From Pseudactinotalea suaedae (GTDB lineage Bacteria > Actinomycetota > Actinomycetes > Actinomycetales > Beutenbergiaceae), in NCBI RefSeq assembly GCF_009733815.1, contig NZ_WNXY01000002.1:1-64000 (forward strand): DNA of 64,000 bases, read 5' to 3'. This document shows positions 11,774 to 23,370 of the stretch, piece after piece. The notes beneath the pieces were generated by a model. That model did not search any database. It saw only the letters and a list, made by a program, of their open reading frames with translations, and was not told where the DNA came from. Each line of letters starts with the position of its first letter. Positions within the stretch are counted from its first letter, which is position 1. The translations under genes were made by a program, and so were the position numbers.

Positions 11774-11788
11774 ACGTCGGGCTGACAG
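11774..11788. repeat. Right copy of 15-bp target-site duplication (within tRNA-Pro 3' end)
   Basis: ACGTCGGGCTGACAG, identical to 10419-10433. Bases 11777-11788 are the 3'-terminal 12 nt of the tRNA-Pro gene. Confidence 0.9.
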
Positions 11789-11850
11789 GATTTGAACCTG
11801 CGACCCCCTGACCCCCAGTCAGGTGCGCTACCAAGCTGCGCCACAGCCCG
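11777..11850 (-). tRNA. tRNA-Pro (anticodon GGG)
   Basis: 74 nt folding as a canonical cloverleaf: acceptor CGGGCTG paired with CAGCCCG plus discriminator A, D arm GCGCAGCTTGGTAGCGC, anticodon stem CCTGA/TCAGG with loop CTGGGGG (anticodon GGG), and T arm GCAGGTTCAAATCCTGT. The CCA tail is not encoded. A TAGGCT hexamer on the minus strand (11873-11878) may be its -10 element. The gene is the target of two IS481-type insertions at its 3' end, neither of which changes the tRNA sequence. Confidence 0.95.
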
Positions 11851-12304
11851 CTGGCCCCGAAGGGCCTGGACGAGCCTACCGCAGCGGCAGAGCTGCTTCG
11901 GCCAGGGCACACCCCGTGACGGGTCTCGCGCGCGAAGGGCGCTGAGCGGCCCCCGCGGCGCTCAGCCCCTCGATCCTCACCACCTGCCCCAGCCATCCCG
12001 GACCGGGCGCCGGCGGTCCCCGCACCGCCCGTCTCAGCGGTGATGAGCGACCGAGGATGCGCTCTGATACCTCCGACGTGATCGCGGGGCGGGAGGCGAT
12101 TCCCCGGAAGCGTCGGTCGGGACATCCAGAGCTGGGTCGCCGTCGCGATCCGGCGGCCCAGCCCCGGTCCCGATGTGTGAGCACCTCAGATCTGCGTGTA
12201 TCAGGCACGCCCGTCCTGGGTCCTTCCGTTCGACCGACCACGCAGCCCCGGGACCCCTACGCTGAGCACCACTCCGGCCACGAGTCCCGACTACTCGGAG
12301 AGCC
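11851..12304. other. 454-bp intergenic region, core/accessory boundary
   Basis: No credible gene. It should hold the tRNA-Pro promoter on the minus strand and the promoter of the protease operon on the plus strand, for which TACGCT at 12258-12263 is a candidate -10. A short hairpin, GCTGAGCG (11941-11948) with CGCTCAGC (11959-11966), is present. From here on, codon use becomes strongly GC3-rich. Confidence 0.4.
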
Positions 12305-13837
12305 ATGTCCGACAGCACGCCTCCTCGCCCCCGACCACGCCGCAACGCCGCTCAGCGCTTCCGGGTCCTCGACCCGGTGAACGCCGTGCGCCGCGGCAGC
12401 CGCCGGCTCTCAGCCACCGCCTACGTGGGTGATTCGCTGCTCCTGACCGGCGCCGACGGACCCGACGACGAGGCCGTCGCGGCGATCCGGTCCCTCCTCG
12501 ACGGCGAGCTCGAGATCGACTGCTCGTGCCACGCGGCCCGCACCACGGCCCGCGCCCGGGGCGGCTCCGGTCTGCTCAGCACCCGCCTGACGCTGACCCG
12601 CTGCGACGACCGGCTCGGCAGCGGCGTCGACGCCTGGCAGGTGCTCCAGACCGTCCTCACCCGCCACCCCGACCTGGAAGGCCGCATCGGCCTCAACCAC
12701 GTCATGGTCGCCGCGCCCTACTGGGACCCCGTGCCGTACTGGGACCCGGTCCCCTACTGGGACCCGGTCCCGTACTGGGACCCGGTGCCCTTCGGCGGCC
12801 GCCAGGCGCAGGGCCTGGGTGAGTACGGCGCCGCCGGCATCGGCGGCCGCACCCCGGTGGTCTGGCAGGCTGCGGACCCGCGCCTCCACGCGCCACAGCC
12901 CTCGCGCACCCCGGTGGTGGCGATCCTCGACACCGGGCTCGGCATCCATCCGTGGTTCCCCGACGGCGATCCCGCCGTCGAGCGGTGGGACCCGATCGTC
13001 GAGGACCTCCTCGTCGACGGCCGCGACACCGGCGTCATCGACCGCCTCACCGGCACCGTGGGTCCGCTGGCAGGCCACGGCACGTTCATCGCCGGCGTGG
13101 TCCGCCAGCGCAGTCCCCGCACGCGGCTGCTGTCGATCCCGGTGCTCGGTGCCGACGGCGTCGTCGAGGAGTACCTCGTCCACACCGCGCTGCGGCGCCT
13201 CCTCGATCGCCAGCTCGACGCCTTGGCGACCGGCGAGACCGACCAGCTCGTCGACGTCGTCTGCCTGTCCATGGGCTACCACCACGAGGAGGACTCGGCC
13301 GAGGAGGACATCGCCTCCACGTCCAGCCTCGGCCGGCTGCTGCGCGAGCTCGCCGAGGCGGGCATCGCCGTCGTCGCCGCGGCCGGCAACGGGGCGGTGG
13401 CCGACCCCTTCTACCCCGCCGCGCTCGCGCTCCCCCGCGGACGCGCCGTGCCCGACGAGGGACCTCCGCCCCTGGTCAGTGTCGGCGCCACGAACCCGGA
13501 CCAGGCGAGCATCGCGCTGTTCACGAACGACGGACCCTGGGTCACCACCTACCGGCCCGGCGCGGCCATCGTCAGCACGGTCCCGACCGCGCTGCAGGGC
13601 GGACGCTCCCCCAGCGTCGTCGTCGGCGATCGCAGCACCGTCGACCGTGACGACTACTCCTCGGGGTTCGCCGTCTGGAGCGGCACCTCCTTCGCGGCCC
13701 CGGTGCTCGCTGCCGAGATCGCGACCGCCCTCACGAGGGATGACGCCTGGCTCGCCGGCGGCACCGGCCCCGAGCACACCCGCCGCGCGCTGGCCGCCGT
13801 CCTCGACCGGGCGGGGCCCGCCGAGGCCACGCCGTGA
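12305..13837 (+). CDS. Cytoplasmic subtilisin-like (S8) serine protease with PYWDPV repeats
   Basis: 510 residues; ATG with GGAG (12296-12299). An N-terminal region (1-130) of unknown fold contains a CSC motif at 73-75 and seems to play a prodomain-like role. Residues 138-161 are four exact PYWDPV repeats. The S8 catalytic domain has D209 (VAILDTG), H258 (GHGTFIAG), oxyanion N362 (AAAGNG) and S462 (GTSFAAP), so the triad is complete. There is no signal peptide or membrane anchor, so it should act inside the cell. First gene of a four-gene set with a sigma factor, an unknown and a CHAT protease; the stop overlaps the sigma gene (GTGA). Substrate unknown; proteolytic activation of a partner is plausible. 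Confidence 0.88.
   Translation: MSDSTPPRPRPRRNAAQRFRVLDPVNAVRRGSRRLSATAYVGDSLLLTGADGPDDEAVAAIRSLLDGELEIDCSCHAARTTARARGGSGLLSTRLTLTRCDDRLGSGVDAWQVLQTVLTRHPDLEGRIGLNHVMVAAPYWDPVPYWDPVPYWDPVPYWDPVPFGGRQAQGLGEYGAAGIGGRTPVVWQAADPRLHAPQPSRTPVVAILDTGLGIHPWFPDGDPAVERWDPIVEDLLVDGRDTGVIDRLTGTVGPLAGHGTFIAGVVRQRSPRTRLLSIPVLGADGVVEEYLVHTALRRLLDRQLDALATGETDQLVDVVCLSMGYHHEEDSAEEDIASTSSLGRLLRELAEAGIAVVAAAGNGAVADPFYPAALALPRGRAVPDEGPPPLVSVGATNPDQASIALFTNDGPWVTTYRPGAAIVSTVPTALQGGRSPSVVVGDRSTVDRDDYSSGFAVWSGTSFAAPVLAAEIATALTRDDAWLAGGTGPEHTRRALAAVLDRAGPAEATP
12716..12787 (+). repeat. Four in-frame 18-bp repeats encoding PYWDPV
   Basis: Tandem hexapeptide units PYWDPV, with synonymous changes between copies, lie between the N-terminal region and the catalytic domain. 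Synonymous drift with an invariant peptide suggests selection on the amino-acid sequence, perhaps as an inhibitory or recognition segment. Confidence 0.9.
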
Positions 13838-14418
13838 CCGCGCCTGGCGCACCCGACTCCCTCGCGGTCCGCGCGGGGCGGGCCTTCGCTGCGTACCGCG
13901 CCGGCGAGAGCCACCGCATGGCGGAGGTGGTGGAGCTGCTGAACCCGTTGCTGTGGCGCATCGCCCGCAGCCAGGGCACCGATCCCGAGACGGCCGCCGA
14001 CGTGGTCCAGGTCGCCTGGCTGCGGCTCGTCGAGCACGCCGACCGGGTCGCCGACCCGCAGGCGCTGCTCAAGTGGCTCATGGTGACCGTGCGCCGCGAG
14101 TGCTGGCGGCGCACCGGCCGCGACCGGCGCGAGGTGCCCAGCGATCTCGACGACGAGGCGCCGTCGCCGGACCTGTCGCCCGAGGCGCTGGCCGAGCTCG
14201 ACGAGGACCAGCGCGTGCTCTGGAACCACGTCGCCCGGCTGTCGGAGCGGTGTCGCACCCTGCTGCAGGTGATCGCGTTCGCCGACCGACCCGACTACGC
14301 CTCGATCAGCGCCGCACTCGGCATGCCCGTGGGCAGCATCGGCCCCACCCGGGGGCGTTGCCTGGACGCGCTGCGCCGAGCTCTGCGATCCGACACGTCC
14401 TGGGGGGCACCGACATGA
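13834..14418 (+). CDS. Sigma-70-family (ECF-like) RNA polymerase sigma factor
   Basis: 194 residues; GTG start overlapping the protease stop. Region 2 spans about 30-92 (LLWRIARSQG...AADVVQVAWLRLVEH...KWLMVTVRRECWRR) and region 4 about 128-188 (LSERCRTLLQ...YASISAALGMPVGSIGPTRGRCLDALRRAL). No anti-sigma gene with a membrane segment is adjacent. The following 161-residue protein, or proteolysis by the cassette's own enzymes, could provide control. It probably directs transcription of this operon or a small regulon. Its stop overlaps the next start (ATGA), so all three upstream genes are translationally coupled. Confidence 0.85.
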   Translation: MTAPGAPDSLAVRAGRAFAAYRAGESHRMAEVVELLNPLLWRIARSQGTDPETAADVVQVAWLRLVEHADRVADPQALLKWLMVTVRRECWRRTGRDRREVPSDLDDEAPSPDLSPEALAELDEDQRVLWNHVARLSERCRTLLQVIAFADRPDYASISAALGMPVGSIGPTRGRCLDALRRALRSDTSWGAPT

Positions 14419-14900
14419 CCGACGAACCGACCTTCGACCATCCGCTCGACGAGATCGACGCTGCTCTCCTCGACGAGCTCCGGACTACGCTCCAGACCGC
14501 CGACCCGATGCCCCCGGACCTCGATGAACGGGTTCAGCTCGCCCTCACCGTGCAGGCCCTGCACGCGGAGATCGCCGAGCTGCAGCGCCTGCCGGGCGAG
14601 CTCGCGGGGGTCCGCAGCCGGGACTACGAACGCGTCGACACGGTGACGTTCACGAGCGGGTCGATGTCCGCCGTCGTGACGATCACGCGCGTCGATGCCG
14701 ACTCGGCCCGGGTCGACGGCTGGGTCGACGGCGACCTCGCCGAGGTGGAGCTGCGCGAACGCAGCCGGACCTCGAGCGTGACGGTCGACCCCGAGGGCCG
14801 GTTCGCGTTCGCCCGGGTCGAGCGCGGGCTCGTCCAGTTCCTGTTCCGGTTCGTCGACGTCGAGATCAGCCCCGTCATCACCCCGTCCATGGAGGTCTGA
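14415..14900 (+). CDS. Unknown protein of the protease-sigma-CHAT operon
   Basis: 161 residues, not recognised. The first 75 residues are acidic and helical (DEIDAALLDELRTTLQTADPMPPDLDERV), resembling the N-terminal segment of proteins that sit between a sigma factor and a CHAT protease. Residues about 78-155 look like a beta-rich domain (VDTVTFTSGSMSAVVTITRV...VDGDLAEVELRERSRTSSVTVD). No signal peptide or membrane segment. Given its position it could be the regulator of the sigma factor or the substrate of the CHAT protease; neither is shown by sequence. Confidence 0.6.
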   Translation: MTDEPTFDHPLDEIDAALLDELRTTLQTADPMPPDLDERVQLALTVQALHAEIAELQRLPGELAGVRSRDYERVDTVTFTSGSMSAVVTITRVDADSARVDGWVDGDLAEVELRERSRTSSVTVDPEGRFAFARVERGLVQFLFRFVDVEISPVITPSMEV

Positions 14901-14945
14901 GCCGATGGCCTAGGCTGGCGCGCAACCTCAGAGGATCCGAGTGCG

Positions 14946-17486
14946 ATGGTCGCCGAACCCGTCCCGGTGGCCGAGCTCATCGAGCGGGCCCGCGCGGCCA
15001 GCTCGATGGGACGGCCCTCCGCCGCGGAGCAGATGCTGCGCCGTGCCATCCGTGTCCTGTCGCGACCCAGGGCCACCCCCGAGGACCGGGTGCTGCGTGG
15101 GTTCGCCACCATCACGCTGGCCTCCCCCGTGTTCGAGCGGGGCGGTCTGGACCCTGCGCTCGCCCTCCTCGACGAGGCCGACGCCCTCGTCCCCGGGCGA
15201 GCGGGTGACGGCGTTCGCGCCCTCGGTCTGGTCCAGCGGGCCGGGCTGCTCGCCCGCTGTGGTCACTGGCGGGTGGCGGTCGACCTGCTGAGCACGCTCG
15301 GTCCCACGAGCGAGTGGTTGACGCCTCGCCAGCTGGCCTCCGTGCATCTCAACCGCGCCACGGCACGGCTGTACCTCGGCGACCACCGCCGTTGCATGGT
15401 CGACCTGCAGACCGCGCTCGACCTCGCCGAGACCGCGGGGGCGCCCGACCTGGAGTTCAAGGCGCGCCACAACCTCGGCTACACCCGTTTCCTCACCGGC
15501 GACGTGCCCGGCGCGCTTCACGCGATGGGCGAGGCGGACCGCATGGACGTCGGTGTCGCTCGCGCCACCGCCAAGCGCGACTACGCGCGCGTGCTCATGA
15601 ACTCCGGCCTGGCCGACGAGGCCGCACCGCTGCTGCAGGAGGCCGTGGCGATCGCCACCGAGCTGCGGCTGCACCACGAGGTCGGCGAGGCGCTCGTCGA
15701 CACCGCACGCCTCGAGCTGCTGCGCGGGCATCCGGACCGGGCCGCGACGGCCGCCACCCGCGCGGGTCGCCTGTTCCGGCGTCGGGGCGCCGACGGCTGG
15801 TGGGTGCAGGCGGAGATCCTGCGCGCCGAGGCCGCCCTGGCCGCGGGGCTGCGGCCCCGGGCGGCCGCGCAGCTGGCCGAGCGGTTGCAGGAGCTCCCGA
15901 CCCAGTCGCGCGTCGTCCGCCGCGCCGCGCTGCTGGCCGCGACCGAGGCCAGTCTGGCCGCCGGTGACCAGGACCGAGCCACCCGGTTGCTCGCCCAGGT
16001 GCGCGGCACGGCGACCTCGCCGGCCGGTCGTCTCCAGCAGGACTGGCTGGCGGCGCGGCTCGCGCTCGCCGCGGGCCAGCGCACCCGTGCCCGGCGCCGG
16101 CTCCGCGACGCCGCTCGACGGATGGCCGAGCAGCAGGCACGGCCCGCCTCCCTCGATGCCCGCACCGCCTTCGCGCTGCACGCGGGCCGGCTCGTCACCC
16201 TCGACGTCGATATCGCCCTCGCGACCGGCTCGCCCAGCCGCGTGCTCACCGCGACCGAGCGCTGGCGCGCGGCCACCACCCGCATGCCGAGCCTGGTCCC
16301 GCACCAGGACGGCTTGCTGGACGAGCTGTTCACCCAGCTCCGGGTGCTCCGCTCACAGCTTCGCGACGGCGCCGACGCACCCGGGACCGACGCGCTGACC
16401 TGGCGCGTGCAGGAGCTCGAACGGGCGATCCGGCAGCGTGAGTGGGAGCTCGCCGACGACGACGGGAGCACCGGGCTGCTGCGACCGGTGCGGGCCGCCG
16501 AGGTCAGCGCGTTCGCCGCGCAGAGCGATACCGACGTGATCGCGCTGTTCGCGGCCGCGGGCCGGCTCGGTGCGGTGACGATCGATGCACGCGGCACGCG
16601 CCTGCACGATCTCGGCGACGCCGACCACGTCGCCGAACAGAACCGGCTGCTCCTCGCCGACGTGGCGATGGCCGGGCGCCGGTTGCCCTCCTCGCTCGCC
16701 GCCGTCGTGCGTCGTTCCCTCGCCAGGAGGCTCGACGGCGTCGCTCGGCTCATCCCGTGGCCGATGACCCGGTCGAGACTCGTCGTCGTCCGGACCAAGG
16801 TGCTGCGATCCCTGCCCTGGCGGCTGCTCCCCGGGCTGGACGAGCGACCGCTGGTCGTCGCCTTCTCGCTGACCGCGTGGGTGGCGGGTGAGCGCGACCC
16901 GGCGCAGGTCGACCGCGTCGCGGCGCTGGCCGGTCCCGGGCTGGAGCGCGGCGAGGACGAGGCGGCCGCCGTCGCCCGCGCCTGGGGCGAGCACGGCTCC
17001 GCGGTGGCGCACGCCACCGGCACCGATCTCACCGAGGCGCTCGTGAGCGCCGACGTGGTGCACGTGGCGGCGCACGGCCACCACCATGAGCAGAACGCGC
17101 TGTTCTCCTCGGTCACGATGCACGACGGCCCGCTGTTCGCCTACGAGCTGCAGCGCCGCGGCGTGCGGGCGGGGCACGTGGTGCTCTCGGCGTGCGACAC
17201 CGGTCGGGCGTTGATCCGGCCCGGCGACGAGTCGATCGGCCTGACTGCGAGCATGCTGGCCTGCGGCGCCCGCAGCGTCGTGGCCGCGGTGGCTGCGGTG
17301 GACGACGGCGTCGCCGCCCGGCTGATGGGCGCCTACCACCAGCGGCTCGCGAGCGGGCTCACGTCCTCCGAGGCGCTGCACCGCGCCACCGCGGACGTCG
17401 ATTCCGCCGCGGCAGCCCGCCTGTTCTCGACCTACGGCTCGGACTGGCAGATCGGCGCACGGCCCGACCGGGTCCAGGGCGGGTGA
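14946..17486 (+). CDS. TPR - CHAT caspase-like cysteine protease
   Basis: 846 residues. The N-terminal two thirds are TPR-type helical repeats (ALALLDEADAL, ATARLYLGDHRRCMVDLQTALDLA, DEAAPLLQEAVAIA). The C-terminal CHAT (clan CD) protease domain has catalytic H710 (VAAHGHHH) and C750 (LSACDTG), with the conserved GxxSIGLTASMLACGARSVV segment after it. CHAT proteases linked to TPR sensors act in signalling and antiphage cell death, for example the gasdermin and type III-E CRISPR contexts. A TAGGCT at 14911-14916 could give it a private promoter, but it is only 45 bp from the preceding stop. Together with the S8 protease it makes a two-protease cassette. Confidence 0.88.
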   Translation: MVAEPVPVAELIERARAASSMGRPSAAEQMLRRAIRVLSRPRATPEDRVLRGFATITLASPVFERGGLDPALALLDEADALVPGRAGDGVRALGLVQRAGLLARCGHWRVAVDLLSTLGPTSEWLTPRQLASVHLNRATARLYLGDHRRCMVDLQTALDLAETAGAPDLEFKARHNLGYTRFLTGDVPGALHAMGEADRMDVGVARATAKRDYARVLMNSGLADEAAPLLQEAVAIATELRLHHEVGEALVDTARLELLRGHPDRAATAATRAGRLFRRRGADGWWVQAEILRAEAALAAGLRPRAAAQLAERLQELPTQSRVVRRAALLAATEASLAAGDQDRATRLLAQVRGTATSPAGRLQQDWLAARLALAAGQRTRARRRLRDAARRMAEQQARPASLDARTAFALHAGRLVTLDVDIALATGSPSRVLTATERWRAATTRMPSLVPHQDGLLDELFTQLRVLRSQLRDGADAPGTDALTWRVQELERAIRQREWELADDDGSTGLLRPVRAAEVSAFAAQSDTDVIALFAAAGRLGAVTIDARGTRLHDLGDADHVAEQNRLLLADVAMAGRRLPSSLAAVVRRSLARRLDGVARLIPWPMTRSRLVVVRTKVLRSLPWRLLPGLDERPLVVAFSLTAWVAGERDPAQVDRVAALAGPGLERGEDEAAAVARAWGEHGSAVAHATGTDLTEALVSADVVHVAAHGHHHEQNALFSSVTMHDGPLFAYELQRRGVRAGHVVLSACDTGRALIRPGDESIGLTASMLACGARSVVAAVAAVDDGVAARLMGAYHQRLASGLTSSEALHRATADVDSAAAARLFSTYGSDWQIGARPDRVQGG

Positions 17487-17510: not shown

Positions 17511-18443
17511 TCAGACCTCGCCCGGCAGCGCCAGCCGGATCACCAGGCGGGTCCAGCCGCCGATGAACACCCGGTCGTCCTCGGCCAGCTCGCGCCGGTC
17601 CCCGGGGGTCAGCGGCGTGGTCGGCAACGGGTCGCCGGTGTGGCTCACGTAGGTGCCGTTCGCGGAGTCGAGGTCCTCGACCCACCAGCGCAGCCCGTCG
17701 GTGGTGAGCTGGCAGTGCCGGCGCGAGACGCCGGTGTCCTCACCGGCGTCCACGTCGGGCTTGATGCCCCGCGAGGCCGACGGCCGCCCGACCAGCACGC
17801 TCTTCGCGCGCAACGGCACCACGTGCGGCGAACCCGGCGCCGGCATCCGGTCCTCGGGATCCTGGGCCGCGTACCAGTCCGGGTCCACCCAGACCTCGGC
17901 GACCCACTGGTCCGGTCCGGGTGCCGGCGGCGTGGGCAGCCCACCGCTGCTCGCCGGCTGCTCCGACCCCGGGTCCGCCTCACCCGGGGCGACGGCGGCA
18001 GGCTCGTTCTCCGCCGGGTCGCCCTGGGCCGGGTCGCCCTCGGCCGGGTCCGGCTCGGCCGGGTCGGGGCCGCCGGGCTCAGGGTCGCTGGGACCGGGGT
18101 CGCCGGTGCCCGGGTCGCTCGGCTGGGGGTCGCCGGGCTTGGGGTCGCTCGGTCGGGGACCACTGGGCCCCGGATCGCTCGGCAGCGCCCAGGGGTCGGC
18201 GTTGATCGGCTGCGGGGCCGTGCCCGTGGTGAAGTCGTACCCGCAGTTCTCGCAGAACAGCGCGCCCGGGGCTGCGGGCGAGCCGCAGTGCGGGCAGGTG
18301 GTGGCAGCGGTGGACGCCTCGGTGGGCTCGGCCGGGCTGGGCACCGCGGGGCCGGCGCTGGTCGCCGCCTCGATCGGCGCGCCGCAGATGTCGCAGTAGT
18401 CCTCGGACTCCGAGGTGTGCCCCTGCGGACAGACCGCGCTCAC
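17511..18443 (-). CDS. Zinc-ribbon and FHA-domain protein
   Basis: 310 residues; GTG start overlapping the VWA stop. The N-terminus has two zinc ribbons (CPQGH...CDICG at about 5-21 and CPHCG...CENCG at about 50-67). Residues about 80-170 are a low-complexity Pro/Asp/Gly/Glu linker (SDPGPSGPRPSDPKPGDP type). The C-terminal FHA domain (about 215-305) has the phosphothreonine-binding pattern VGR...SRRH...NGTYV. FHA domains read threonine phosphorylation, so this last gene of the operon is the likely reader or substrate of the PknG-like kinase, in the place GarA/OdhI takes in mycobacteria and corynebacteria. It is not a GarA orthologue by architecture. Confidence 0.85.
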   Translation of the reverse strand: MSAVCPQGHTSESEDYCDICGAPIEAATSAGPAVPSPAEPTEASTAATTCPHCGSPAAPGALFCENCGYDFTTGTAPQPINADPWALPSDPGPSGPRPSDPKPGDPQPSDPGTGDPGPSDPEPGGPDPAEPDPAEGDPAQGDPAENEPAAVAPGEADPGSEQPASSGGLPTPPAPGPDQWVAEVWVDPDWYAAQDPEDRMPAPGSPHVVPLRAKSVLVGRPSASRGIKPDVDAGEDTGVSRRHCQLTTDGLRWWVEDLDSANGTYVSHTGDPLPTTPLTPGDRRELAEDDRVFIGGWTRLVIRLALPGEV

Positions 18444-19717
18444 TTGCGCACCCGGGTGGTCTTGGTCGACGCCGTGTCCAGCGCCATCTCGTCCAGTTTG
18501 TCGGTGTTCCGCTTGAGGCGCACGGTGCCCTGCTCCTCGTTCTCGATCTCGACGACGCGCCGCAGGCGCGAGGTGGCCTCGTCGTTGCCGGTCTCCTTCG
18601 CGAGCTGGACGGCGCGACCGAGCTTGACGGTCGCCGTCGCCTCGTCACCGGCCGCCTTGGCGGCCAGACCGTCCTGGATGGCCTCCGCGAGCTCGGCCTG
18701 CCCCGTGTAGTGCGCGACCTCGGGGTTGATCCGCGCGGTGAGGTTCGAGTCGCTCGACCACATCGCCTTGACCAGACCCGATGCCTGCACCTGGTCGCCG
18801 GTGACGATCTGCACGCGCGCGGCGAGCTGCTCGGCGCCGACCGGCTTCGAGCCCACCCGCACCGCCACGTGGTACTCGCGGCTCTCGTCGCCCCAGCTGC
18901 CGGTCGGGAAGCCGCTGGTCAGCGGGTTCACCACGGTCTTGCGGGGCGTCAGGTCGTCCAGCTTGGGCGAGACCTGCTTGACGAACAGCAGCTGCGAGCC
19001 CTGCGGCGCCCACACGCGCAGCTGCGCCTCGGCCACGCCACGGGCCATCGACTCCCCCAGCATCTGCCGGAAGCTCGCGGCGATCTGGGAGGGGTCGCGG
19101 ATCAGCTCGTCCGAGCCCATCAGCGCCGAGGCGATCTCACGGACCTCGGCCACCACGTAGCGAGAGCCGACGCCGCGGGCGTCGCAGCGGAACTGACCCT
19201 GCAGCCGCTCGAGCGTCGCGGTCAGCTGGGACTTGGGCTCGGACTCGTTCTTGCCGTCGGTCAGCAGGATGGCGTGCCGACGGGCGCCGTGCGGGACGGT
19301 CGTGAACAGCTGGCCCGCCAGCTGCAGCCAGGTGCTCATCGCGGTGCCACCACCGGCGCGCATCATGCCGATCGCGCGCTTGGCCTCGGCCCGGGCCGCC
19401 GGCTCCATCCGGACCATGGCCGACGGCGCGTTCGGGTACGGGAACACCCGGTTCGCGACGTGGCTGCCGCCGACGATCGCGAACCACGTGCCGTCCACGA
19501 TCACGTCGAGCGCGACCTTGGCCGCCTCCTGTGCGGCCGCGAAGCTCGCACCCGCCATCGAGCCCGAGGTGTCGATCATGATCACCTCGGCGGCCTCCAA
19601 GGACCCTGCCGACGCCGCACCGGCGCCCGACGCGGTGACCCGCACGATCGCGTGCACGTCGGTGGCGCCCTCGGCCAAGAACTCGTTCTGGAACACCTCG
19701 GCGGTGAAGCTGGCCAT
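18440..19717 (-). CDS. von Willebrand factor type A domain protein
   Basis: 425 residues. The VWA domain covers about 40-240 with an intact MIDAS: DTSGSMAG at 49-56, the Thr in AGGGTAMSTW and the Asp in LLTDGKNE. The C-terminal part (from about 330) is helical and charged, ending KTTRVRK. No signal peptide. VWA proteins with a PP2C phosphatase, kinase and FHA protein form metal-dependent assemblies in stress-signalling loci, including tellurite-resistance-type ones. It is 57 bp downstream of the phosphatase gene and overlaps the FHA gene. Confidence 0.87.
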   Translation of the reverse strand: MASFTAEVFQNEFLAEGATDVHAIVRVTASGAGAASAGSLEAAEVIMIDTSGSMAGASFAAAQEAAKVALDVIVDGTWFAIVGGSHVANRVFPYPNAPSAMVRMEPAARAEAKRAIGMMRAGGGTAMSTWLQLAGQLFTTVPHGARRHAILLTDGKNESEPKSQLTATLERLQGQFRCDARGVGSRYVVAEVREIASALMGSDELIRDPSQIAASFRQMLGESMARGVAEAQLRVWAPQGSQLLFVKQVSPKLDDLTPRKTVVNPLTSGFPTGSWGDESREYHVAVRVGSKPVGAEQLAARVQIVTGDQVQASGLVKAMWSSDSNLTARINPEVAHYTGQAELAEAIQDGLAAKAAGDEATATVKLGRAVQLAKETGNDEATSRLRRVVEIENEEQGTVRLKRNTDKLDEMALDTASTKTTRVRK

Positions 19718-19774
19718 CGTCTCTCCTGTCCTTCGCCCTGCAGGCTATCCGGTCCGTGTGCCGTTGCCCGGCGG

Positions 19775-21064
19775 TCAGCCGGGAAGCCGTGCGAGCACGG
19801 CCGTGATGTTGTCGCGACCACCCTGGTCGTTGGCCCAGGACACGAGCGCGCCGGCGACGTCGGTCGCGATCGCGCCCTCCCCTGCCGCCGCGACGGTTGA
19901 CCGGACCAGCTCGCCCAGGTCGTCCGCCTCGGCACAGTAGTTCCACAGGCCGTCCGAGCACAGCAGCAGCCAGCCGGGAGTCGTCGCCATCAGGGTGTCG
20001 GTGCGGGGCTTCAGCTCGGGCGCGTCCGGGCCGAGCCAGCGCGTGATCGCGTGCGCGTGCGGCGAGGACTCGACGCGGCTCGCCGGCACGCCGAGCTCGA
20101 GCATCTCCTGCGCCCACGAGTCGTCGATCGTCAGGCGGACCCCTCGGCCCTCGTCGGGCAACCAGTACGCCCGCGAATCACCGACGGAGGCGACGACGAC
20201 CCGCTGGTCGTGCACCACGGCAGCCACGTAGGTGCACGACGGCGCGTCCGAGGGCTGCTCGACCGGGACCGCCAGCACCGCCTCGTTGGCGCGCGCGGCC
20301 GCGTCGTCGTGGAGCACGCCCCAGGCGCTCGTCCGTGCGCCGCCGGGAGGTTCGGTGACCTCGCGCGGTCCACCTGGCGCACCCTCGGCGAGCGTGGCCA
20401 GCGCGGCCGCGCAGGCCGCGAGGCTGGCCTGGTCCGACAGCGGCGCGGTCGAGACGCCGTCGCACACCACGATCATCGTGACGCCGCCGACGATGTCCAG
20501 CGCCATGGCGTCCTCGTTGCGTGCGTGGGTGATGCCGCGGTCGCAGACCCCACCCACGGTCGCGCTCGGCGAGACCTCGAAGTGGTCGCGCTCGCTCATC
20601 GCCGGAGCGCCGCACTCCTCGCAATAGCCGTCCGCGGCCACCCGCCCGCCGCACCGGGCGCACGGACGTGCGGGAGGCGCGGCGGCCGCCGCGACGACCG
20701 GCTCAGGCTCCGGCGCGGCACCGGTCATCGGGGACCCGCACACCTCGCAGAACTTCGAGCCCGCGGCCACCTGCGCACCGCACGACGGGCAGGCGACGTC
20801 GGGCTCGCTCTCGGACTCACCCGTGGACTCGGGCTCGACCGCACGCGTCGCCTCGGACGCGGGCTCGACCGCAGGCGCCGCCGGGGACTCGGGCTCGTCG
20901 ACCGGCCCGGCCTCCGGGCTCGTCCGGGTCTCGGCGGGCGCCCCCGGCTCGTCGGGGTCGGTGATCTTCACGTGCTCCGGCACCGGGAGCCCGCTCTCGG
21001 GCAGCCCCTCCGCGGGCACCTGGCCCGCTGGTCGCTGCGCGTCGCCGGTCGTCGGTTCACTCAC
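19775..21064 (-). CDS. PP2C-type Ser/Thr phosphatase with zinc ribbons
   Basis: About 429 residues. Two GTG codons are possible; 21064 is chosen because it gives the same GTGA overlap used by the neighbouring genes. An acidic N-terminus leads to two zinc ribbons (CPSCG...CEVCG and CARCG...CEECG), then a PP2C domain with the metal-binding motifs ARNEDAM, VVCDGVS, VGDSRAYW, SDGLW and GGRDNIT. It should remove phosphate from Ser/Thr residues placed by the PknG-like kinase encoded just upstream. Soluble, with no membrane segment, unlike PstP. Confidence 0.9.
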   Translation of the reverse strand: MSEPTTGDAQRPAGQVPAEGLPESGLPVPEHVKITDPDEPGAPAETRTSPEAGPVDEPESPAAPAVEPASEATRAVEPESTGESESEPDVACPSCGAQVAAGSKFCEVCGSPMTGAAPEPEPVVAAAAAPPARPCARCGGRVAADGYCEECGAPAMSERDHFEVSPSATVGGVCDRGITHARNEDAMALDIVGGVTMIVVCDGVSTAPLSDQASLAACAAALATLAEGAPGGPREVTEPPGGARTSAWGVLHDDAAARANEAVLAVPVEQPSDAPSCTYVAAVVHDQRVVVASVGDSRAYWLPDEGRGVRLTIDDSWAQEMLELGVPASRVESSPHAHAITRWLGPDAPELKPRTDTLMATTPGWLLLCSDGLWNYCAEADDLGELVRSTVAAAGEGAIATDVAGALVSWANDQGGRDNITAVLARLPG

Positions 21065-23370
21065 CACAGGGTCCAGTTCCGTACAGCGTTGGCGCGGTCG
21101 ACGAGCGCGATGCGCTCGCCGCGGGTGTCGGCGATGCGGGCCCGCTCGCGGTAGGCGGCCTCGACCGCGTCACGCAACGGACGCTCCTGCGCAGGCACGT
21201 CGGCGATCTGCGCACCCATCGGTGCGTTCGTCCGATGCACCTGGGCGAGCGCGGCCTCCAGCACCTCGATACGGAGGTCCGCCCGGGCTGCAGGACTGAG
21301 CGGGACGCCGTCGATGCTGCGCAGCGCGTCGTCGAGCGCCTGCAGACCGCGACCGGACGCCGTCAGCGCACGCGCCCGCTGCAGCCGTGCCGCCGGGTAG
21401 GAGCCACGGGTCGGTGCCACCAGGTCGAGCGAGCGCAGCACGCCGTCGAGATCCTGCCTCCTGCTGCGGATCCGGGTCAGCCCGAACGCCGACGGCGCGG
21501 TGTAGTTGGCGTCGGAGCGCGCGCACACCACGTAGAGCGACTCGGCCACGTCCAGCTCGCCGGAGACCTCGCAGGCGGTCGCCAGCGCCAGCTTGGGCGC
21601 CAGCTCGCCGGGTACCTGCCCGTACACGGCGTTGAAGGACGCGACCGCCGTCGCGGCGTCGTTGCCGGCCAGGTCGGCCAGCCCGCCGATCCACAGCGCC
21701 CGCCACTCCCACGGGTCGTCCGCGAGGATCTCCCCGATCAGCGAGCGGGCCACGTCGATCCGGTTGGCCGCCACGGCCGCCTGGGCGATCGCGAGCTGGA
21801 CCTCGACCGTGCGCTCCGGTGCCTTGTTGAGCGCGGTCACCCGAGCGACCGGGTCGGCCACGTTGACGCCGGCGAGGAAGCTCGCCATCGGGTCGGAGGG
21901 GTCCACCTCGAGCTCGGGAAGCTCGTGCCACATCAGCGGCCGCTCGGGCACGTCGACCGTGGGGGCGGTGAACAGCGCCGACGCCGACGAGGTGGTGGCG
22001 GGGTTGCCCGGCCCGCGGTCGGCGGAGACCACCTCGCGCAGCACACCGAGCAGCTGCACGCGCATCTCGTCCACCGACCCGAACCGGTCGTCGGGGTTGG
22101 GCGCGCAGGCCTTGGCCAGCAGCCGGTAGAACGAGTCGTACGTGCCGAACACCGGGGTGTCCGCGACCGGCGGCAACGACGCCACGTAGGTCGAGGTGTT
22201 GCCGCGGAAGTCCAGCACCAGCGTCGCGAGCGTGCGGCCGATCGTGTAGATGTCGGACGCGACCGAGGGACCGAGCTCGGCGACCTCGGGTGCCTGGTAG
22301 CCGACCGTGCCGAAGATCGCCGACACGTCGTCGTCGACCCGGCGCACACCGCCCATGTCGATGAGCTTGACGCCCTCGCCCTGCTGGATGATGTTGTCGG
22401 GCTTGAAGTCGCAGTACAGCAGGTTGTGGTCGTGCAGGTACGCGAACGCCGGCAGCACCTCGAGCACGTAGGCGAGCGCCTGGTCGACCGGCAGCGGGTC
22501 CACGACGCCGTGATTGGCGTCGCGGCGGTCCTTGAGGATGTCCTTGAGCGACTTGCCGCCCACGTACTCCATGACGGTGTACCCGGCGTCGTCGTGGACC
22601 ACGAAGTTGTAGATCTCGACGATCAGCGGGTGCTCGACCTCGGCCAGGAACCGCTGCTCGGCGATCGCGGCCGCCGCGGCATCGGCGTCGTCGGCGTTCA
22701 GCAGGCCCTTGAGGACGACCCAGCGCCCGGACACGTTGCGGTCCCGTGCCAGGTAGATCCATCCCAGGCCGCCGTGGGCGAGGCACCCGACCACCTCGTA
22801 CTGACCGGCGACCAGCTCGCCCGGCTTGAGCACCGGGTCGAAGTTGAACTTCGCGCCGCACGCCGGGCAGAAGCCGGAGGACCGGCCCTGCACCTCGCCG
22901 CGCGACCGACCCACAGGGCCGCCGCAGGAGGCGCAGTAGCGCTTCCGCTCGGGCACCTCGGCGACCGGCATGATCGCCTGCAGCGGGTCGGCCACCGGGA
23001 CCGGCGGCACCGTGGTGAGCCCGGCGCCCAGGCGGTGCCCGCGCAACCGGGTGGAGCCGGTGCCGACGCGGCGCGTCGTCCGCGACCCGGTGCGCGCGGA
23101 ACCGATGGCGGTCGAGGCCAGCCGTGCCGACGATGTGCGGGTCGAGTCGCGGTGCTCCGGTCCGCGCATCGCCGAGGTCTTGCCCGAGTCCGGGCGTGCC
23201 TCCGGCATGCCGGCGCCGAGCACCGCCGACGGCGAGGCACCGCCCGTCGGCGTCGCCGCCGCGGCGGAGGCCGCCGTGGCACCTCCGCCCGAGGACTCGG
23301 GCGAGCCGCAGACGTTGCACCAGCCGTCCTCGTAGGTGCCGGTGCAGCCCGGTTGCGTGCAAGCGGTCAC
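21061..23370 (-). CDS. pknG: PknG-like serine/threonine protein kinase with zinc ribbon and TPR domain
   Basis: 769 residues. An extra zinc ribbon is at the N-terminus (C4, C9, C18, C21); a low-complexity region runs to about 140; the rubredoxin-like site is C146, C149, C168, C171; the kinase domain runs about 190-440 with the glycine loop AHGGLGW, K221, the catalytic loop YCDFKPDN (D321) and metal-binding D338 in DMG; a C-terminal TPR region follows. The order rubredoxin - kinase - TPR, the missing Arg before the catalytic Asp and DMG in place of DFG are all PknG features. The partners GlnH and GlnX are encoded upstream, matching the mycobacterial pathway that senses aspartate/glutamate and controls 2-oxoglutarate metabolism. 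Confidence 0.92.
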   Translation of the reverse strand: MTACTQPGCTGTYEDGWCNVCGSPESSGGGATAASAAAATPTGGASPSAVLGAGMPEARPDSGKTSAMRGPEHRDSTRTSSARLASTAIGSARTGSRTTRRVGTGSTRLRGHRLGAGLTTVPPVPVADPLQAIMPVAEVPERKRYCASCGGPVGRSRGEVQGRSSGFCPACGAKFNFDPVLKPGELVAGQYEVVGCLAHGGLGWIYLARDRNVSGRWVVLKGLLNADDADAAAAAIAEQRFLAEVEHPLIVEIYNFVVHDDAGYTVMEYVGGKSLKDILKDRRDANHGVVDPLPVDQALAYVLEVLPAFAYLHDHNLLYCDFKPDNIIQQGEGVKLIDMGGVRRVDDDVSAIFGTVGYQAPEVAELGPSVASDIYTIGRTLATLVLDFRGNTSTYVASLPPVADTPVFGTYDSFYRLLAKACAPNPDDRFGSVDEMRVQLLGVLREVVSADRGPGNPATTSSASALFTAPTVDVPERPLMWHELPELEVDPSDPMASFLAGVNVADPVARVTALNKAPERTVEVQLAIAQAAVAANRIDVARSLIGEILADDPWEWRALWIGGLADLAGNDAATAVASFNAVYGQVPGELAPKLALATACEVSGELDVAESLYVVCARSDANYTAPSAFGLTRIRSRRQDLDGVLRSLDLVAPTRGSYPAARLQRARALTASGRGLQALDDALRSIDGVPLSPAARADLRIEVLEAALAQVHRTNAPMGAQIADVPAQERPLRDAVEAAYRERARIADTRGERIALVDRANAVRNWTLW

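Follow-up and report, generated by a model that had tools for sequence, protein, structure and literature searches.

The window, a stretch of 64,000 nucleotides from Pseudactinotalea suaedae, carries four plus-strand genes that encode an S8 subtilase, an ECF-type sigma factor, a 161-aa protein and a TPR-CHAT protease. These are real genes that lie where the initial annotation had placed them and, as it had also reported, the first three are coupled through 4-nt overlaps (GTGA between S8 and sigma, ATGA between sigma and the 161-aa gene), with the CHAT gene starting 45 nt downstream of the stop codon of the third. The features are as follows:

11776-11850, minus strand: tRNA-Pro gene, 455 bp upstream of the S8 gene
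12305..13837, plus strand: S8 subtilase gene (510 aa)
12362..12709 (approximate limits), plus strand: conserved N-terminal domain of the S8 protein, ending GLNHV, aligned in 24 homologues
12716..12790, plus strand: tandem hexapeptide array, PYWDPV four times and a further P (aa 138-162 of S8)
12908..13747, plus strand: S8 catalytic domain (Pfam Peptidase_S8)
13834..14418, plus strand: ECF-type sigma factor gene (194 aa)
14415..14900, plus strand: gene of the 161-aa protein
14946..17486, plus strand: TPR-CHAT protease gene (846 aa)
16764-17399, plus strand: CHAT domain (Pfam)

The S8 protein matches Peptidase_S8 (1.2e-14, Pfam) and displays the Asp-His-Ser triad and oxyanion Asn of that family (D209, H258, N362 and S462), conserved in 57 of 57 aligned sequences. 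The 846-aa protein combines a CHAT domain (1.3e-30) with a TPR_MalT match (6.6e-12) in Pfam, the TPR part being taken as aa 1-600; its His710 and Cys750 are present in 61 and 62 of 63 aligned sequences, respectively, the remainder being gaps. The active sites are thus intact, as had been claimed; the alignments draw on the initial 72 loci, among them the window itself and L032 and L034, which are duplicates of each other. A hydropathy count found a signal-peptide-like or membrane-like stretch in none of the four proteins of the window, so the description of the S8 protease as cytoplasmic is borne out here; this support is specific to the window's proteins, as stretches at or above the hydropathy value used occur in 10 of 98 S8 and 43 of 107 CHAT matched parts among the homologues. 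The absence of such a stretch also sets the S8 protein apart from the T7SS mycosins (TIGR03921), which are its best NCBIfam match, yet with a score far under the cut-off (41.6 versus 278.75 bits). PDB sequence searches with the TPR-CHAT protein gave no informative relative.

From its position, the N-terminal domain of the S8 protein is propeptide-like, and a low-confidence AlphaFold2 model (mean pLDDT 33.5 for the S8 protein) gives it a b-a-b-b-a-b order. By sequence, it has no informative match in Pfam or PDB, and none of 24 such domains matches Inhibitor_I9. The sigma factor features Sigma70_r2 (1.9e-10, 40.8 bits versus a cut-off of 24; Pfam) and matches the NCBIfam sigma70-ECF model TIGR02937 (61.2 bits versus a cut-off of 42.9). 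The window's copy of the 161-aa protein has no meaningful Pfam match, whereas 14 of 16 homologues match CarboxypepD_reg (PF13620) at E<=1 (best 1.7e-5); on these weak matches, it is probably the carboxypeptidase-regulatory-like member of the ECF54 neighborhood discussed below. Its AlphaFold2 model (mean pLDDT 71) predicts helices at aa 16-28 and 36-58, plus a short one at 10-13, in a block of pLDDT about 56-69, followed by a seven-strand beta-sandwich at aa 74-146. A fold search with this model returned only generic beta-sandwiches (CBM56, CrdA, YEATS) over about residues 72-161; an anti-sigma fold is absent from that list, which excludes nothing, and PDB sequence searches found no informative relative. 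The class I anti-sigma domain has four helices (PMC7406223), versus two clear ones here, in a region modeled with middling confidence.

The gene set is spread across many actinobacteria. Gene neighbors were counted at 110 homologous loci flanked by 6 kb or more in either direction. The sigma and 161-aa genes adjoin each other on one strand, no more than 600 bp apart, in 107, CHAT is near in 92, S8 in 85 and all four genes occur together in 84, which affirms the co-conservation that the initial annotation had asked to be checked. CHAT occurs without S8 in eight of these loci, S8 without CHAT in one and neither in 17; in 15, sigma and the 161-aa gene stand without a nearby S8 or CHAT gene. The occurrence is therefore nested: sigma and the 161-aa protein form a core, with CHAT as the next layer and S8 as the outermost. 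A search with the window's S8 at E 1e-12 found nothing in 23 of the 25 tested genomes that lack a linked S8 gene, so the core pair persists without at least S8. In the order sample, CHAT is found in all 40 genomes with the 161-aa protein (within 10 kb of its gene in 36) versus 30 of 208 without it. Where neither protease gene is nearby, unlinked CHAT genes were sought in the genomes belonging to the order sample; in one genome, G018, CHAT lies on another contig. The four-gene association is not chance. A survey of a 39-locus subset for a conserved fifth gene found no other cluster in more than six loci, using ORFs of 180 aa or more, a limit at which small genes would be missed.

Inter-protein covariation is enriched 2.3-3.8 fold between sigma and the 161-aa protein, a signal that neighboring genes inherited together can also produce; it is at or below 1.0 between either of them and the whole CHAT protein. 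Two of the five strongest single covarying pairs join the 161-aa protein to the CHAT protein, at residue 759, close to Cys750, and at residue 713, close to His710.

A tRNA-Pro gene also precedes the S8 gene in L032 (415 bp) and L033 (347 bp), which places the module at a fixed position, and near relatives carry it with conserved chromosomal neighbors. An IS481-type transposase lies beyond the tRNA gene. Searches of plasmid records with the 161-aa protein and of phage records with the CHAT protein each gave a single, dubious match, and PADLOC assigned the CHAT protein nothing beyond weak matches to BovA, the best at 3.8e-4. Defense or mobile cargo was accordingly set aside as unsupported: the genes, which the initial annotation had placed next to a tRNA-linked hotspot, hold a fixed position among conserved neighbors, and neither phage defense nor cell death gains support from any result here.

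The earlier account of the S8 protein overlooked its tandem array, which we did not find described in the literature searched and regard as a new observation. Such arrays lie N-terminal to the catalytic His in 63 of 101 S8 homologues, with 47 units that vary by lineage and span five to nine residues, mostly hexapeptides; of the 38 sequences without one, at least one (L041) is truncated by the end of its contig. Under a strict, score-bounded definition, which omits degenerate end copies (e.g., L052), adjacent copies differ by 657 synonymous versus two nonsynonymous codon differences, such that about 37% of the codons are synonymously different and the residues almost never. A permissive definition that includes edges and flank gives 2045 synonymous versus 1334 nonsynonymous differences over all copy pairs; a listing by exact copy identity is biased by construction and was not counted as a test. 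P138-P162 is invariant across the window, L032 and L033, whose whole S8 proteins are 76-81% identical. Related species alter the unit in all copies together, and in L036, L037 and L107 the codon signature of one copy is shared between the states that precede and follow a D to E change. The array thus looks carefully maintained by selection, and we read it as a multivalent ligand or a cleavage site.

We sought the unit within the partner proteins of the same locus and found no specific occurrence in 60 loci (permutations attained the value of the own locus in a fraction of 0.27 for sigma, 0.98 for the 161-aa protein and 0.88 for CHAT). Before rate matching, the unit co-varies with the TPR part (r 0.68; regression beta 0.51, permutation p 0.001), and the sigma term of the regression on region similarity is negative and significant. 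After column-rate matching, the TPR part is about level with the S8 catalytic part and, depending on the rate band, with the 161-aa protein or the CHAT domain; because of this leveling, the co-variation with the TPR half is only a hint. Two genomes have two S8-CHAT sets beside a single sigma gene, along with extra copies of the 161-aa gene, which points to several triggers acting on one sigma factor. These sets display their own units, PFTSGG and P[ML]YDGH, kept between the two genomes despite S8 identities of 65% and 52%.

The composition is not new, contrary to the view that no described system has it. According to passages of a review (PMC8999054), the ECF54 sigma group (Huang 2015; Casas-Pastor 2021) features subtilase, CHAT and carboxypeptidase-type neighbors, is described as having no anti-sigma factor and has been proposed to be controlled by proteolysis, through degradation of the sigma factor itself. 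The locus resembles it in an ECF sigma factor with subtilase and CHAT neighbors, a likeness drawn from the group's description rather than from sigma classification; those review passages mention no array. In the type III-E Craspase, Csx29 cleaves Csx30, an inhibitor of CASP-sigma; one locus likewise holds a TPR-CHAT protease, a sigma factor and a third protein (PMC10028731). In contrast, our four genes include no Cas7-11 and add an S8 protease, the 161-aa protein is likened to Csx30 by its proposed role, and identification of the CHAT protein as Csx29 was rejected at 22.7 bits against a cut-off of 300 (NF041237). EACC2/TRADD-N systems also co-encode a caspase-like protease, a TPR protein and an ECF sigma factor, but with other domains and as conflict systems, the word "subtilisin" being absent from that text (PMC8195603).

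We posit, with a probability of roughly 0.4, that the locus encodes a sigma switch of the ECF54 type that works inside the cell under proteolytic control, with an inhibitor, a CHAT trigger and an added S8 layer. By analogy with Csx30, we propose that the 161-aa protein is a soluble sigma inhibitor and CHAT substrate, its helices holding sigma and its beta-sandwich serving as a handle. When a signal engages the TPR part, TPR-CHAT would cleave this protein and free sigma, a step modeled on Csx29, Csx30 and CASP-sigma. The S8 protease would work with the CHAT protein, the array possibly being a docking or cleavage site for their mutual recognition (mutual zymogen control); alternatively, S8 may control its own activity through the array. 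Of the initial proposal, the co-conservation of the four genes stands, and a proteolytic sigma switch is the likeliest way in which they work; the cell death that it held possible is unsupported.

The foremost alternative, which we consider unlikely, dispenses with an anti-sigma factor: S8 and/or CHAT would degrade sigma, as the review proposes for ECF54 (PMC8999054), with the 161-aa protein as an adaptor presenting it. The near-constant adjacency of the two genes suits an adaptor no less than it suits an inhibitor; however, the pair is retained at the 15 loci with neither protease gene nearby, and most tested genomes without a linked S8 gene have no match to the window's S8. Quite improbable is a protease cascade in which TPR-CHAT cuts the array and activates S8, which degrades cell proteins to cause death, while sigma only feeds cassette expression. 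Both catalytic centers are conserved, and the array sits between the propeptide-like and catalytic domains, where zymogen cleavage is expected, but eight loci have CHAT, sigma and the 161-aa protein with no S8, a by-eye reading found no residue common to all units that would mark a CHAT site, and the chromosomal position is fixed in near relatives, with no convincing carriage by phages or plasmids.

Slightly less probable still is an array with no active role, as a spacer or a functionless repeat expansion: tandem repeats arise easily, over a third of the S8 sequences lack one and the permissive counts are compatible with it. However, identical copies are more than a spacer would require, and the near-absence of residue change under the strict definition, the concerted unit changes in related species and the shared codon signature across the D to E change oppose it. 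On about as doubtful a footing as the death cascade is an extension of the sigma switch in which S8 cuts the array into identical peptides of five to nine residues that bind the TPR superhelix and trigger inhibitor cleavage, with an own peptide per lineage and per paralogous S8-CHAT pair in one genome. RRNPP-type peptide signaling, considered for this reading, starts from a precursor that carries a signal sequence and is exported; the window's S8 has no hydrophobic N-terminal stretch by hydropathy.

In the literature reached, the proteolytic control proposed for ECF54 comes with no worked mechanism. CHAT cleavage of a 161-aa inhibitor would provide a concrete, testable one, and a CRISPR-free parallel to Craspase. 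If the array is a ligand of TPR-CHAT, it would account for the activation of bacterial caspase-like TPR proteases and offer a source of many peptide-protease pairs of different specificity. Should S8-derived peptides be the signal, they would amount to a peptide code that is carried within a protease, acts inside the cell and keeps parallel sigma switches insulated from one another.

The cassette spans 12305-17486 and consists of four genes, all on the plus strand:

12305-13837, plus strand, S8 subtilase
13834-14418, plus strand, ECF-type sigma factor
14415-14900, plus strand, 161-aa protein
14946-17486, plus strand, TPR-CHAT protease
12716-12790, within the S8 gene, array of the peptide PYWDPV, constant in peptide and varied in codons

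The initial annotation had three of these genes coupled by 4-nt overlaps, a cytoplasmic S8 protease and intact active sites, all of which is borne out. The overlaps read GTGA (S8/sigma) and ATGA (sigma/161-aa gene), with the CHAT start following after a 45-nt gap, and hydropathy gives no signal-peptide-like or membrane-like stretch in any of the four window proteins. Among homologues, counted over the matched parts of the proteins only, 19-residue stretches that reach the hydropathy value used occur in 10 of 98 S8, 43 of 107 CHAT and 1 of 131 161-aa sequences. In alignments drawn from the first 72 homologous loci, among them the window and the duplicates L032 and L034, S8 residues Asp209, His258, Asn362 and Ser462 are kept in 57/57 sequences, and CHAT His710 and Cys750 in 61/63 and 62/63, respectively, the other sequences being gapped there.

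Between its conserved N-terminal domain, whose last residues are GLDHV or a variant of it (24 sequences aligned), and its catalytic domain, the S8 protein displays an array of tandem identical short peptides. Such an array precedes the catalytic His in 63 of 101 S8 sequences, with 3 to about 11 copies of a hexa- (52), hepta- (6), penta- (3), octa- (1) or nonapeptide (1); the remaining 38 have none, at least one of these being cut at a contig end. The 47 distinct units include NPFTRT, GYGSGV, HPFTQS, PFWGGH, NPAYQG and PFTRGA. With array limits set by a mismatch-penalising score and degenerate end copies left out, a codon-by-codon comparison of adjacent copies yields 1099 identical, 657 synonymous and 2 nonsynonymous pairs, the synonymous share expected from random single-base changes being 25%. 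A permissive definition that takes in ends, flank and all copy pairs gives 2045 synonymous versus 1334 nonsynonymous differences; the result stands that inner copies differing at 37% of their codons encode the same peptide. Changes of unit between related species hit all copies at once (PFIETN/PLIETN/PFIATN; GYGDGV/GYGEGV), and across L036, L037 and L107 the arrays with D and those changed to E alike include a copy whose codon signature is GGT-TAC-GGG. Paralogous S8 proteins within loci L075 and L077 differ in unit (PFTSGG versus P[ML]YDGH), each unit being kept between the two loci at 65% and 52% S8 identity. The window's genome has two further S8 loci, neither with an array of three or more copies; one of them carries, in some frame, a six-residue repeat in two copies. 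Literature searches restricted to open-licence papers listed no report of the S8 array.

The 161-aa protein is present in 40 of 248 genomes from the window's order and, by profile, in 73 of 396; the counts for the class and phylum are 98/394 and 33/396, with overlap among these samples. CHAT occurs in 70 of the 248 order genomes, namely in 40/40 with the 161-aa protein versus 30/208 without it, and lies within 10 kb of the 161-aa gene in 36/40; some of the 30 CHAT-only genomes (e.g., G004, G077, G223) are 161-aa positives by the more sensitive profile. Loci were collected from the remaining order matches (39 genomes), further phylum matches, a selection of 59 loci from the class and profile matches and two named loci, some genomes contributing two or three. 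Annotation with profiles of the four genes and removal of the duplicate L034 left 130 loci; linkage was scored in the 110 that have flanks of 6 kb or more. In 107/110 the sigma gene adjoins the 161-aa gene, on the same strand and no more than 600 bp away; the CHAT gene lies within 9 kb in 92 and the S8 gene within 7 kb in 85. The survey of four-gene conservation proposed in the initial annotation thus finds all four in 84/110, with CHAT but no S8 in 8, S8 but no CHAT in 1 and neither in 17. From this linkage and nested occurrence it follows that sigma and the 161-aa protein form the core, to which CHAT is added in most loci and S8 almost only alongside CHAT. When 25 genomes lacking a linked S8 were searched at E 1e-12 with the window's S8, a single query that can miss very divergent S8 proteins, 23 gave no match. 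Among 122 loci, sigma-161-aa-S8-CHAT is the commonest order (39), followed by the window's own S8-sigma-161-aa-CHAT (33), the remainder being shuffled or divergent. In three genomes of one genus (G018, G035, G051), the CHAT gene is on another contig than the sigma-161-aa pair, and the module may be split there.

In a model built from three sequences (mean pLDDT 71), the 161-aa protein has helices at 16-28 and 36-58 and, after a loosely ordered stretch, a sandwich of seven strands (74-146). All 16 sequences aligned keep a DPxPxxL motif between these helices; one L077 copy deviates from it. The window's copy has no cysteine and 17 of 131 homologues have at least two, which sets the protein apart from typical zinc anti-sigma factors. 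Its two helices may recall class II anti-sigma factors (CnrY type). Class I domains comprise four (PMC7406223). No peptidase domain was matched for the 161-aa protein. CarboxypepD_reg (PF13620), a beta-sandwich domain, is matched at E<=1 by 14 of 16 homologues (best 1.7e-5) and not by the window's own copy. The protein thus probably supplies the carboxypeptidase label of ECF54, a sigma group ascribed subtilase, CHAT and carboxypeptidase-type neighbors and for which proteolytic control has been proposed, and we provisionally place the cassette by context in this kind. Its composition is already known by context from the ECF54 account of one review (PMC8999054), and the earlier statement that no system of this composition was known is not supported.

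The cassette, which the initial annotation placed next to a tRNA-linked hotspot, looks like a stable chromosomal module and not hotspot cargo. Searches of plasmid records with the 161-aa protein and of phage records with the CHAT protein gave one match each. A tRNA-Pro(ggg) gene lies upstream in the window and likewise in the named relatives closest to it, Actinotalea caeni (L032) and Pseudactinotalea terrae (L033); downstream genes were scanned in the window and L033, whose FHA, VWA and PknG-type kinase genes match. Past this tRNA, the window has an IS481-type transposase. Neighbors are shared among six loci of a 39-locus subset, and by eye a ribosomal-protein-L1-like neighbor is seen in six and an RpoB-like one in five. 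The plasmid match to the 161-aa protein is an 11.85-Mb Nonomuraea record. The phage match to the CHAT protein is an unverified "Bacteriophage sp." contig of 74% GC (L170; GenBank MT838002.1), which holds an S8-sigma-161-aa-CHAT module, with the S8 cut at the contig end, beside a cysK-like gene (by eye), and looks like bacterial chromosome rather than phage. Adjoining the module on the minus strand (17511-23370) are genes for FHA, VWA, PP2C (scanned in the window only) and PknG-type kinase proteins, of which several have zinc ribbons. Ahead of the S8 gene, at about 12196-12203 of the window, GTGTATCA is identical in the window, L032 and L033; a TGATACA arm precedes it in the two relatives, the left arm being degenerate in the window, and together they are a possible operator or terminator palindrome.

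Mutual information over 105 loci (effective number 71; L034, L075, L077 and L100 excluded) is enriched 2.3-3.8 fold between sigma and the 161-aa protein, which could also be explained by shared ancestry of this adjacent pair, and is at or below 1.0 between CHAT and either of them. Among the five strongest single pairs, three nevertheless join the 161-aa protein to CHAT, two of these through CHAT residues 759 (close to Cys750) and 713 (close to His710). Over 47 loci whose units have six residues (L033, L034, L075 and L077 excluded), unit similarity follows the TPR part of the CHAT protein (0.68, 0.67) and the S8 catalytic domain (0.59) most closely; correlations are lower for the CHAT domain (0.51), the 161-aa protein (about 0.4) and sigma (0.35). 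In matrix regression on the unit, TPR half 1-300 has weight 0.51 and S8 0.40 (p 0.001), the CHAT domain keeps none (0.13, p 0.08) and the sigma term is negative (-0.32, p 0.001). For P-type units alone, S8 (0.52, p 0.001) and TPR (0.33, p 0.009) keep weight; for G-type units, TPR only (p 0.006). With rate-matched columns the TPR lead shrinks and is inconsistent across rate bands, so that unit-TPR co-variation is a hint. No specific occurrence of the unit was found in the partner proteins.

We tentatively posit (probability about 0.4) that sigma would be held by the 161-aa protein at rest and that TPR-CHAT, when engaged, would cleave the latter to free sigma. S8 would be coupled to TPR-CHAT via the array, as a zymogen that is opened at this site or as the supplier of the ligand. 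Csx29, the TPR-CHAT protein of Craspase, acts likewise on Csx30 (PMC10028731). In a bolder and less likely reading, S8 would cut its own array into peptides, all identical, which would switch on TPR-CHAT; such a system would differ from exported peptide systems, as the window's S8 protein is without any export signal. Returning to release of sigma by TPR-CHAT, L075 and L077 have a single sigma gene beside two S8-CHAT sets, with two and three 161-aa copies, respectively, within the stretch read, as if several triggers converged on one sigma in an apparent multi-input version of the switch.
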